From Yaniella halotolerans DSM 15476 (GTDB lineage Bacteria > Actinomycetota > Actinomycetes > Actinomycetales > Micrococcaceae): a stretch of DNA of 64,000 nucleotides. The notes under the pieces are model-generated. The model did no database searches. It was not told where the DNA came from and was given only the letters and a program-made list of their open reading frames with translations. The stretch lies in the NCBI RefSeq assembly GCF_000420805.1, contig NZ_ATVQ01000001.1, positions 1 to 64,000 of the forward strand, read 5' to 3'. Position numbers and translations under genes: made by a program. Shown here piece by piece: positions 38,222-54,298 of this stretch; positions within the stretch are counted from its first letter, which is position 1; the number at the start of each line of letters is the position of its first letter.

Positions 38222-38228
38222 GGTGGTA

Positions 38229-38849
38229 ATGAACGAGCACTACTTTTCTGCCGCCCCTGGAGGCGAAGAGCGTCGCCGCCGCATTGATGTACAGATTGCG
38301 GGCGAGGCTTTCAAGGTCGACACTGCCGCTAGCATTTTCTCTCCCGATGGGTTGGATCGCGGTACTGAAGTGTTACTGAACAATGTGCCCGTGCCTCCGC
38401 AAGAAGGTAGTTTTCTCGATATTGGTTCGGGCTGGGGTCCAATTGCCCTCACCTTGGGACGGCTCGCGCCAAATGCAGATGTTCTCGCAGTCGAGGTCAA
38501 CGAACGGGCCGCCGAGTTAACAGCACGAAACGCAGAACACCTTGGGCTATCAAATATCGAGGTCAGACACCCAGATGAAGTCACCGAAGATATACGCTTT
38601 GACCTAATTTGGTCGAACCCACCAATTCGGATTGGGAAGAAAGCCCTTCACGAACTGCTGATTCGTTGGTTACCAATGCTCAATCCTGGAGGCGCTGCCT
38701 GGCTGGTTGTTGCTAAAAAGCTCGGGGCTGATTCACTGTTGCCTTGGATAGACGCGATGCTTGAGCAGAAGATGCCGGGCCAGTTCAATGTCCGACGCAC
38801 GGCAACAGACAAAGGTTTTCGTGTGCTCCACATCGAGAGAGTTTTATAG
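38229..38849 (+). CDS. RsmC/RlmG-like class I methyltransferase
   Basis: SAM-dependent methyltransferase of 206 residues. Motif I is FLDIGSGWGPIAL (about residues 62-74), the acidic end of strand 2 is LAVEVNERA (about 86), and the catalytic motif NPPIRIGK (about 130-137) is that of guanine N2 rRNA methyltransferases of the RsmC/RlmG group. It corresponds to the C-terminal half of E. coli RsmC, the usual actinobacterial short form. The likely target is a guanine in 16S or 23S rRNA. The 3' end overlaps the convergent dapF-like gene by six bases. Confidence 0.88.
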   Translation: MNEHYFSAAPGGEERRRRIDVQIAGEAFKVDTAASIFSPDGLDRGTEVLLNNVPVPPQEGSFLDIGSGWGPIALTLGRLAPNADVLAVEVNERAAELTARNAEHLGLSNIEVRHPDEVTEDIRFDLIWSNPPIRIGKKALHELLIRWLPMLNPGGAAWLVVAKKLGADSLLPWIDAMLEQKMPGQFNVRRTATDKGFRVLHIERVL

Positions 38850-39752
38850 CTTCCCGTAGAAGACTCTCGTTAGTTTCGCAAACGTCGACAACCTATTCTG
38901 ATCATGAACTTGGACAACGATATCTCCGTGTTCCGTGGCGACGTTCCAGACATTCAGCTGGTCTAGACCACTCCAATGCTGTAAAGCGACGGAGGCTGCA
39001 GCGGCGGCAGCTGCAAGATCGTGGGCATGTTGTTTTTCTGTATAGTTACGTAAACGCAATTGGCCCATGCCACTTGACATCAAAGGATCTTCAGGAACGA
39101 CAAAGTTGATCCCTGTCAGTCTGGGAGCTGGTGGTTCAAGCGAGGGCTGTTGCTCGAGATCGATAGATTCAAGTTCGTCGAGAGTTTCTACAGCAACAGT
39201 TACGTGATTACTTTGAATATGAATGCTCAGTCCCGGCCGGGGATCGAGAAGTCCTGCTGCCATGACCAAAACATCAGACCCAGCAGCGACGGCGGTTTCT
39301 GAGTCTGAAAATTCCCAACTACCAATATCCACACCAATATATGACGGCGTGTAAACCGTTGTAATCGGTCCAAAATCTGTATCGAATATATGATGACTTG
39401 TTTCGTCGAATGCAATCTTCTTGAGCACTGCTAGCAGGCACGTAGCAACACGTGCCGGCTCAGTCATATTTGGAGCAGGCTGACCGTTTGCTTCCCAGGC
39501 AACGAGCCGATACTCTGCGGCTGTTGCGCTAGATTGTTGCCGTACCGATCTAACTACAACGATGCCCGCAGCACCCACGCCGGCAATGCGGTCGCACAAT
39601 ATCGCGGCAAGAGTGTCTGTCAGTTGCACCGAGTCAGTCGGGTCATAGAACACGATCCAGTCCCCAACCGGTCCTGCGATCTTCACAAAACGTGTCCCTG
39701 TGAGGTCGTGGAGTCCACGGTTGTCGTCTTGGGCGGGTGAAGGGGCGATCAT
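38844..39752 (-). CDS. DapF-like protein lacking both catalytic cysteines
   Basis: Protein of 302 residues at the usual actinobacterial dapF position next to miaA. Weak but ordered family landmarks remain: VKIAGPVGDWIVF (where active DapF has KxxGxxNDF), CDRIAGVGAAG (for CDRxxGxGADG, residues 53-63) and an SNH at 181-183 (for GNPH). The first active-site motif MCGNGxR is replaced by NMTEPARV (95-102). The second, GxxxxCGTG, is replaced by an alanine run (247-253). The only cysteines are C53 and C105, so the two-base racemase mechanism cannot work. It is either an inactive relic, a structural or regulatory pseudo-enzyme, or a divergent family. The reading frame is intact and codon use looks normal. 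Confidence 0.72.
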   Translation of the reverse strand: MIAPSPAQDDNRGLHDLTGTRFVKIAGPVGDWIVFYDPTDSVQLTDTLAAILCDRIAGVGAAGIVVVRSVRQQSSATAAEYRLVAWEANGQPAPNMTEPARVATCLLAVLKKIAFDETSHHIFDTDFGPITTVYTPSYIGVDIGSWEFSDSETAVAAGSDVLVMAAGLLDPRPGLSIHIQSNHVTVAVETLDELESIDLEQQPSLEPPAPRLTGINFVVPEDPLMSSGMGQLRLRNYTEKQHAHDLAAAAAAASVALQHWSGLDQLNVWNVATEHGDIVVQVHDQNRLSTFAKLTRVFYGKL

Positions 39753-39761
39753 ATGGCTACC

Positions 39762-40682
39762 TTAACTGGATTTTATGACGTCCAAAGCCTGGATCTTGAG
39801 GTCCGGGGCTTCTGCATCAATCCATCGTACTCGTGGATCGGCTTTAAACCAGGTTTCCTGACGACGAGCAAATCGCCTGGTCGCTACTATTGTAGAATCC
39901 ATTGCCGCTTGTTGAGTGGTGTCATCTACAAGAAAGTCCATCATCTGCCGATAGCCTATGGCGCGCGAGGCTGTAGGCGCATCAGCGAGTCCTTCGGCTA
40001 ATAGTCGTTGGACCTCAGGAATCCAACCATCATCAACCATGGCTTCTACGCGTTGTTCAATACGTTCGTGAAGCCGGGCCCGATCAATGCGTAAACCTAT
40101 CTGCACAACCGGCAACATCTCTGGGTGATATTGGCGTCTCGGCATAAAGGAACTGAAGGGCCGTCCAGTCAACCGATACACTTCTACAGCACGGATGATG
40201 CGTCGTTCATCTTTGATGCGTTCTGCCGCCGTTGGATCGACTGACTTGAGTTCTTCAATAAGGTGTCTGCTACCCAGCTGATGAACCTCGTTAGATAGGC
40301 GTTCTCTCAGCTCGTCATCGGTAGGGGGAAATTCCAATATGTCGAGTGCTGCCCTCATATATAAACCAGAACCACCGGTGATTATTGGTGTTTTTCCTCG
40401 GGATCGTATTTCGCATACTTTTTCGCGGGCAAGCTTTTGGAACTCTGCGACGCTGGCTTCCATATTAAGATGGTAGATATCAAGCAGGTGGTGGGCAATA
40501 CCCTCACGTTCAGCAAGTGTCGCTTTGGCTGTCCCTATATCCATACCCTTGTAGAACTGCATTGAATCTGCGTTAATCACTTCACCGTTGAGTGCGTGCG
40601 CCAATCCAACCGCCAGATCAGTTTTACCTGTTGCGGTTGCTCCTACAAGGGCGATGACAGGACTGTTAGTTTGCACCGACAC
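39762..40682 (-). CDS. miaA: tRNA dimethylallyltransferase
   Basis: Adds the dimethylallyl group to A37 of tRNAs reading U-initial codons. The P-loop GATATGKT (14-21) is present, followed by [15 protein letters not shown] (about 39-53) and [11 protein letters not shown] (about 100-110). It has 306 residues. The start at 40682 lies 17 bases inside the end of miaB, so translation is coupled. MiaB, encoded just upstream, acts on the product of this enzyme. Confidence 0.95.
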
Positions 40683-50762: not shown

Positions 50763-51653
50763 TCAGATTGCCATACCGGCCTCGGCTAGGTCTGCCTTGA
50801 TGATGGCCTCTTCTTCAGCAGTTGCCGCTATAAGTGGTAGGCGTACCCGTGCAGAAGGGATAATGCCCTGCCACTGCAACACGGTTTTCGCAGCGACGGC
50901 CCCCTGAATATGCGTCATGACAGCGCGCTGGATCGGATCAAGCTCAAAGTGTTTCTGACGTGCGGTCGCGAAATCACCGGCGTTCGCTGCATCAACTAAC
51001 TCACGGTAGGTGCGAGGTGCGGCATGACCTGACACAGACACCACGCCGACTGCACCGGCCGCCATCAACGGTAATGTCAACCCATCGTCACCTGAATAGA
51101 CTGCTAAATCCGTGTTGGCTAACACCAATGTGGTGGACTGGTAGTCGGATTTGGCGTCTTTGAGCGCGACGATATTTGGATGTTCTGACAAGGCAATGAT
51201 TGTCTCGGGTTCGATAGGCATAACTGAGCGACCCGGAATGTCATACATCATGACTGGAAGGTCGGTTGCAGACGCAATGTATTCGAAATGTGCCTTGATG
51301 CCAGCCTGATTCGGTTTGTTGTAATACGGCGTGACAAGTAATAACCCATCAACGCCAGCGGCTTCGGCGCGTTTCGACAGGCCCGCGGAATGCATCGTGT
51401 CGTTCATTCCAGTACCGGCGAGCACTTTTGCACGCCCGCCCACGGCCTCAACGACGGCTTCAAAAACTTTGATATTCTCGTCATCGGTTAGTGTTGATGT
51501 TTCGCCTGTTGTACCAGTTACAACAAGGCCGTCGGCACCGTTATCCACCAGATAATTGGCAAGCGACTGGGCTGCATCAAGATCCAACGCACCGTCATCC
51601 GTAAACGGGGTGACCATAGCTGGAACCATGGTGCCAAGAATTGGTTCTGTCAT
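50763..51653 (-). CDS. dapA: 4-hydroxy-tetrahydrodipicolinate synthase
   Basis: First committed step of the diaminopimelate/lysine pathway, condensing pyruvate with aspartate semialdehyde. A TIM barrel of 296 residues: TGTTGE substrate loop (about residue 46), the tyrosine in LVTPYYNKPNQAG (about 137) and the Schiff-base lysine in VALKDAKSD (about 166) are all present. It is followed by rnj. dapB is 1.8 kb away on the same strand beyond a plus-strand gene. Confidence 0.96.
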   Translation of the reverse strand: MTEPILGTMVPAMVTPFTDDGALDLDAAQSLANYLVDNGADGLVVTGTTGETSTLTDDENIKVFEAVVEAVGGRAKVLAGTGMNDTMHSAGLSKRAEAAGVDGLLLVTPYYNKPNQAGIKAHFEYIASATDLPVMMYDIPGRSVMPIEPETIIALSEHPNIVALKDAKSDYQSTTLVLANTDLAVYSGDDGLTLPLMAAGAVGVVSVSGHAAPRTYRELVDAANAGDFATARQKHFELDPIQRAVMTHIQGAVAAKTVLQWQGIIPSARVRLPLIAATAEEEAIIKADLAEAGMAI

Positions 51654-53452: not shown

Positions 53453-54229
53453 TTAATCCAGGTCAAGGTAAGCGTCCAGGCCGTAGGACAGACCCGGTCG
53501 AGAAGCAACAGTTCGCAAGCCAAGCAGAACACCCGGCATGTAGGAGGACCGGTCAAAAGCGTCGTGCCGTAGCACTAGTTGCTGGCCGGGGGTGCCCATG
53601 AGCACTTCCTGGTGCGCTTCTAGACCTGCTAGCCGTACCGCATGCACGTTAATTCCTGCAACAGTGGCACCACGGGCATGATCGGGGTCGTGTTCTGTCG
53701 CATCTGGTGAAGGTGCGACCCCTGCCTGTTCACGGGCATCAGCAATCATTTCGGCAGTACGAACAGCCGTGCCTGACGGTGCGTCGATCTTGTTGGGGTG
53801 ATGCATCTCGATGACTTCGACCGAATCAAAATAGGGCGCTGCTTGAGCTGCGAACCGAGTCGCTAGAACAGACCCAATTGAGAAATTTGGTGCGATCAGT
53901 ACACCAAGATTGGGATGTTCTGCCAGCTGCTTGGCCAATGTCGTTCGCTTATCTTCGGTCCAGCCGGACGTTCCGATCACGGTATGTAGGCCGTTGTTGA
54001 TCGCGTATTCCACGACCTGAGAGGAAACGTTCGGGACGGTCAAGTCGAGCACGTGGGTTGCGCCAGCTGCACAGATATCGTCCAGTGGATGCTTCGAGGA
54101 GAGTTTCGCAACGAGTTCCATGTCGTCAGCTGCGTTTACGGCATCAATGGCATACTGCCCCATTTTTCCGGTTGCGCCTACCAACGCTACTTTGACGGGG
54201 TCTTGTGCAGAATCTTTTTCAGTGGACAT
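53453..54229 (-). CDS. dapB: 4-hydroxy-tetrahydrodipicolinate reductase
   Basis: Second step of the DAP/lysine pathway. Rossmann motif VGATGKMGQ (about 18-26), GTSGW (about 88) and the catalytic motif HHPNKIDAPSGTA (about 143-155, His and Lys present) are all intact. It has 258 residues. The start is ATG 54229, seven bases after a TAAGCT box, suggesting a leaderless message; six extra codons upstream are possible but lack support. Confidence 0.95.
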   Translation of the reverse strand: MSTEKDSAQDPVKVALVGATGKMGQYAIDAVNAADDMELVAKLSSKHPLDDICAAGATHVLDLTVPNVSSQVVEYAINNGLHTVIGTSGWTEDKRTTLAKQLAEHPNLGVLIAPNFSIGSVLATRFAAQAAPYFDSVEVIEMHHPNKIDAPSGTAVRTAEMIADAREQAGVAPSPDATEHDPDHARGATVAGINVHAVRLAGLEAHQEVLMGTPGQQLVLRHDAFDRSSYMPGVLLGLRTVASRPGLSYGLDAYLDLD

Positions 54230-54236
54230 ATCGCCT

Positions 54237-54242
54237 AGCTTA
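54237..54242 (-). promoter_or_regulatory. Predicted -10 box of dapB (leaderless)
   Basis: TAAGCT on the minus strand, seven bases before ATG 54229. No ribosome-binding site lies between. Confidence 0.48.
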
Positions 54243-54298
54243 GTCAATGTTGTGCGTGCTGCGCCTAGCGCAGCAGCTGTGGGCTATGTTTTGAACGG

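Follow-up and report, generated by a model that had tools for sequence, protein, structure and literature searches.

A DapF homologue without catalytic residues, apparently retained under selection in a Yaniella genome with a DAP dehydrogenase

The window (the whole stretch of DNA that was analysed, 64,000 nucleotides, from the beginning of contig C1 of a 2.78 Mb genome in 6 contigs) contains a dapF homologue that has lost the residues needed for epimerase catalysis. Its product, called a dead DapF in what follows, is most likely a DapF-derived protein that folds but does not catalyse. The favored explanation, which is considered probable, is that the DAP dehydrogenase Ddh took over, catalysis by DapF was lost, the protein diverged fast, and it was then held as a non-catalytic protein. 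This would be a natural and apparently repeated experiment in which a redundant biosynthetic enzyme becomes an inactive yet selection-guarded protein, the replacing enzyme being unrelated. With no paralogue found, a known bypass and a single gene, it offers a clean system for asking what an ex-enzyme does without catalysis. The case also cautions that a gene annotated as dapF behind miaA may not encode an epimerase, a point relevant to predictions of auxotrophy and to the use of DapF as a drug target. No DapF retained without its catalytic residues was found in the literature searched, a scope that mostly excluded subscription papers, and the available part of PMC6113628 carries no mention of the Yaniella cell wall.

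The open reading frame begins with ATG and lies behind miaA, where the sequence-only reading had placed it (Table 1). At their stop ends, this gene and the methyltransferase gene, which is convergent to it, share 6 bases (38844-38849).

Table 1. Features of the window discussed in the text, with positions counted from its first letter
Feature	Position	Strand	Basis
Dead dapF (302-aa DapF homologue lacking the catalytic residues)	38844..39752	-	profile matches and alignment A2
Residues 96-101, MTEPAR, at the site of canonical CGNGVR; M96 for C83 (first catalytic cysteine in C. glutamicum), E98 for N85	39450..39467	-	alignment A2
Residues 246-253 (L, then alanines) at the site of canonical CGTGACAA; L246 for the second catalytic cysteine, C221	38994..39017	-	alignment A2
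Residues 160-175 (DVLVMAAGLLDPRPGL), stretch common to dead and many canonical relatives	39228..39275	-	post hoc pattern
miaA, upstream neighbour, selection yardstick	39762..40682	-	PF01715, E 1.1e-79
Methyltransferase gene, convergent, second yardstick	38223..38849	+	PF05175, E 4.9e-28
dapA, passes curated cut-off	50763..51653	-	TIGR00674, 282.1 bits, cut-off 206.15
dapB, passes curated cut-off	53453..54247	-	TIGR00036, 183.4 bits, cut-off 122

Judged by its sequence, the protein is a DapF homologue, with matches that are weak but real. It scores 25.6 bits against PF01678 (E 1.3e-5, cut-off 34.7) and 31.5 bits against TIGR00652 (E 1.2e-7, residues 21-300, cut-off 114.65); the canonical DapF L011 scores 192.5 bits against the latter. 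A profile built from the dead proteins matches solved DapF chains with a best E of 2e-8; the known C. glutamicum DapF structures are 5h2g and 5m47. DAP_epimerase is the sole Pfam match of the window protein at E up to 1, with no other family of the fold. The protein resembles DapF in chain-wide homology, length and its place behind miaA, but differs in having neither catalytic cysteine, in having none of eight other required residues, and in falling below both cut-offs.

According to the available part of the report on C. glutamicum DapF, alanine mutants of ten residues abolish activity, including both cysteines (C83 and C221) as well as N15, N74, N85, N159, N194, E212, R213 and T223 (PMC5296763). 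In alignment A2, which sets the window protein beside nine canonical proteins from its taxonomic family, all ten are replaced: N15 to G, N74 to E, C83 to M, N85 to E, N159 to S, N194 to G, E212 to T, R213 to E, C221 to L and T223 to A, with positions matched by motif and a shift of one residue possible at this divergence. No catalytic cysteine motif occurs anywhere in the protein. NMTEPARV is at the position of MCGNGVRV, the start of the CGTG helix reads LAAA, and the motifs for holding the carboxylates of the substrate have been lost. The sequence-only reading had described NMTEPARV in place of MCGNG, a run of alanines in place of CGTG, and C53 and C105 as the only cysteines, and this description is exact. 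Its further statement that no catalytic cysteine is left agrees with the alignment, which puts M96 and L246 at the two sites, and the predicted inactivity as an epimerase is supported because all ten required residues are lost.

C53 is the cysteine of LCDR and is also present in six of the nine canonical proteins of the alignment. C105, nine residues beyond the lost catalytic cysteine, was considered as a displaced catalytic cysteine and rejected, since it is missing from five of the nine genus proteins. A frameshift or misreading, which the earlier reading had named as a ground for refutation, is excluded because the frame is free of stops and lacks both cysteine motifs in all nine genomes of the genus. 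It is hardly credible that the protein is still a DAP epimerase by way of displaced cysteines or a misread sequence. The standard gene position and the overall homology would fit such an enzyme, but the change of ten out of ten required residues, the agreement of nine genomes, the patchy occurrence of C105 and a Ddh that would make the reaction unnecessary all argue against it.

The rest of the pathway indicates how meso-DAP may be made. Both dapA and dapB are in the window and pass their curated cut-offs, in line with the earlier view that they are intact, and lysA is present in the genome. That reading had offered a second dapF or a DAP dehydrogenase as the source of meso-DAP. A second dapF was sought in the genome in three ways and not found: PF01678, which is blind to dead DapFs, gave none, and a protein query and the A2 profile each returned the window's own gene only. 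A full-length ddh is present on another contig (C4), with 412.4 bits against an equivalog cut-off of 180.6, and residues 3-315 of its product align without gaps over 313 residues to residues 4-316 of C. glutamicum Ddh (1dap). The dehydrogenase option is thus confirmed at the level of sequence. Ddh is also found in seven of the eight other genomes of the genus, the eighth being only 71% complete. There was no dapD match in the nine genomes of the genus (g1), four of g12 and one of g17, and dapE gave only weak matches (at most 58 bits) in these 14, none above the cut-off. In the 16 relatives tested outside these three groups, dapD passes in all and dapE in 15 (the exception is G020). The DapD/DapE (succinylase) branch appears to be gone. 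Because the ddh gene is full-length, and neither dapD, dapE nor another DapF was found, Ddh, whose activity is predicted from its sequence, is presumably the evident route to meso-DAP in this genome.

Ddh converts tetrahydrodipicolinate to meso-DAP in one step, bypassing DapD, DapC, DapE and DapF, so the epimerase would have become dispensable. A comparable case is Corynebacterium ulceribovis, for which the available part of the genome report describes an annotated dehydrogenase route, with dapE and dapF missing and dapC and dapD present (PMC4572677). As far as that part goes, the two bacteria are alike in the dehydrogenase route to meso-DAP and in the loss of dapF function, but differ in that here dapD and dapE were not found and the DapF frame is retained.

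The dead dapF is a constant feature of the genus. It is an open frame without catalytic cysteines in all nine Yaniella/Enteractinococcus genomes, the copy in G007 being cut by a contig end. The named loci in the profile search came from three Yaniella, three Enteractinococcus and one 'Micrococcaceae bacterium' record, and plasmid records gave one match, in Arthrobacter, with 28% identity. In the family as a whole (197 genomes, including the one studied here), 181 have a DapF, defined as PF01678 over its cut-off, a definition that a protein minus one or two cysteines may still pass. The DapF was read in 38 of the 181 (L010-L030 without L015, L022 and L029, and L104-L123), and both cysteine motifs are present in all 38. 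The 16 genomes with no PF01678 match over the cut-off comprise all nine from g1, four from g12, one from g17, G153 and G171. The DapF homologues of g12 (four) and g17 (one) were also read; none of the five has a catalytic cysteine motif and all five are free of stops. The g17 protein has a chance CAT tripeptide close to its C-terminus.

Ddh passes in 47 of the 197 genomes, 14 of the 16 without PF01678 and 33 of the 181 with it; the family genomes are related, and these counts are not independent events. Since 33 genomes with Ddh retain DapF, Ddh does not force its loss. Two of the 16 lack Ddh, namely the incomplete G007 and G153. Neither G153 nor G171 gives a DapF match, both retain dapD and dapE, and an assembly gap is a guess at the cause. 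The type of Ddh was considered as a cause and rejected: the family's dead-DapF genera share one of two types (27 proteins), yet g4 has the same type and a canonical DapF. In G149, one of the 47, the ddh match (G149:C1:2058471-2059413) is broken by a TGA stop and the DapF passes PF01678, the opposite fate, with Ddh decaying.

Dead DapFs also occur elsewhere in the order. A sample of 396 genomes from the order contains 39 in which Ddh passes, and 36 of these are outside the family. Both cysteines are present in the DapFs of 24 of these 36, one is left in G363, and both are lost in six (G054, G337, G385, G433, G479 and G470); the DapF of G468 is in two contig-end pieces and outside this tally. 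No DapF match was obtained in the other four (G038, G311, G415 and G495), so a dead DapF is not indispensable everywhere. Among the family genomes and the Ddh-bearing genomes outside it, every dead DapF encountered was accompanied by Ddh, except that of the incomplete G007. dapD is above the cut-off in 26 of the 36 and is kept in five of the seven with a dead or half-dead DapF (G054, G337, G363, G470 and G479), with none in G385 and a match below the cut-off in G433. Outside the family, then, DapF can become a dead protein while dapD is still there.

A graded loss can be seen in g47, in another family of the order, where all four genomes have Ddh and keep dapD: G363 (L084) has lost the second cysteine only, G479 (L088) and G337 (L089) have lost both with their surroundings mostly kept, and G054 (L099) has lost most motifs. 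In G263 and G250 (L086 and L087, g34), Ddh is present, dapD is absent at the cut-off and DapF has both cysteine motifs, which is either another LL-DAP route or the same process at an early point. In G470, a DapF-like frame of 178 aa behind miaA (L101:3133-3667, reverse complement) has no cysteine motifs, with Ddh and dapD present, and looks like a truncated remnant.

Selection on the dead dapF was estimated from pairwise Nei-Gojobori counts, reporting the four pairs of lowest pS in each set. In three close Yaniella pairs (dS 0.8-1.1), its dN/dS is 0.07, 0.11 and 0.12 (pN 0.077-0.106 vs pS 0.50-0.58), with 0.12-0.14 for miaA and 0.09-0.12 for the methyltransferase gene. In the pair L007-L008 (dS 1.9), it is 0.11 vs 0.07 and 0.08 for the neighbours. 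The four closest g12 pairs give 0.09-0.21 vs 0.05-0.15 for miaA, and the range for canonical dapF in three other genera is 0.05-0.36. Non-synonymous change is depressed in two Yaniella pairs (Fisher p 2.5e-47 and 5.1e-33) and in a g12 pair (9.8e-19). In g47, the pair G337-G054 has 0.59 for the dead dapF and 0.39 for miaA, and the remaining pairs have 0.25-0.34 vs 0.33-0.47. Within the genus, the dead DapF has a mean identity of 0.61, below the 0.69 of MiaA and the 0.71 of the methyltransferase, so the constraint on it is somewhat weaker.

Change on the stem appears to have been fast. The stem branches of the DapF tree amount to 1.9 + 1.0 + 1.75 changes per column for g1 and 1.9 + 2.9 for g12, and those of the neighbour tree to 0.27 + 0.18 and 0.62, a rough comparison since the two trees differ in shape. 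For L001-L003 the tip lengths of the two trees agree; for L005-L008 the DapF tips are longer by a factor of 1.5 to 2.6. A rapid phase with later constraint is a pattern that a change of function can leave. DapF may have given up catalysis and changed rapidly along the group's stem, after which selection would have held a folded, non-catalytic protein in a structural, partner-binding or regulatory role.

The dead dapF in Yaniella/Enteractinococcus does not look like a decaying relic. A plain relic, decaying after replacement by Ddh and merely not yet deleted, is quite unlikely here. With Ddh present, DapF is expected to lose its function, and the absence of DapF from 4 of the 36 Ddh genomes outside the family, the 178-aa frame in G470 and the g47 pair with a dN/dS of 0.59 fit such decay. 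These same absences and that pair also count against the favored explanation, as do the faster evolution of the dead DapF than of its neighbours over the whole genus and g12 values exceeding the miaA range. Against a relic, the pN of the close Yaniella pairs is far below their pS, the frame is free of stops in nine of nine genus genomes and in all five of g12 and g17, many new columns are fixed across the genus, and the dN/dS speaks against decay for g1 and g12. As the low dN/dS suggests that selection retains the gene, the protein probably has a role of its own. The new role proposed in the sequence-only reading is to this extent favored over a relic.

In alignment A2, the eight genus proteins have 40 invariant columns in common with canonical DapF and 47 that differ, 9 of the 47 being at the C-terminus, where the canonical rows were cut. 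E98 is among the differing columns and is invariant in the nine dead rows. A new enzyme that uses the DapF fold with other catalytic residues, for example around E98, would account for these columns but is unlikely. DapF-like proteins do take new substrates, and the DapF of Chlamydia is reportedly bifunctional. The histidine racemase of F. nucleatum is active and DapF-like, with C67 and C209 as catalytic cysteines, according to the available part of its report (PMC11602996). It is like the window protein in being a re-used DapF-type protein, there in a bacterium without a DAP pathway, but differs in keeping both catalytic cysteines and being active. The loss of the substrate-carboxylate motifs and the match to DAP_epimerase alone in Pfam also argue against a new enzyme.

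Of the 40 shared invariant columns, 23 are at residues 142-224, away from the catalytic cysteines. Within this region, the pattern [DN]..V...G....R[PA].L (residues 160-175), which was selected post hoc and is no more than a lead, occurs in 18 of 20 proteins that lack both cysteine motifs (the exceptions are L005, one residue off, and the short L101). The one-cysteine protein has it as well, as do 40 of the 66 two-cysteine rows (L050 and L078 being one gene). It is a possible, if doubtful, extension that the DapF of the order long had a second, non-catalytic job in partner binding or regulation, perhaps in residues 142-224, and that, where Ddh relieved it of epimerisation, the catalytic site was lost in separate lineages and the protein was kept for this second job. 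If so, the pseudoenzymes would bring to light a concealed function of a textbook enzyme.

The number of losses was addressed with trees. The DapF tree unites g1, g17 and g12 (support 98/98), and the program warns that long branches may join falsely. In the tree of MiaA and the methyltransferase (34 rows, G007 left out), g1 and g17 are grouped (support 100/99) and g12 stands apart, beside the canonical G034. A single origin of the family's dead DapFs was tried as a constraint and rejected by this tree (p-AU 0.002). Two losses inside the window's family are probable rather than proven. Of the seven DapFs read in family f13, six are canonical and one, from G433, is dead; family f3 has three canonical, six dead or half-dead and four genomes without DapF. 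Since both families mix canonical and dead DapFs, separate losses in different families are very likely.
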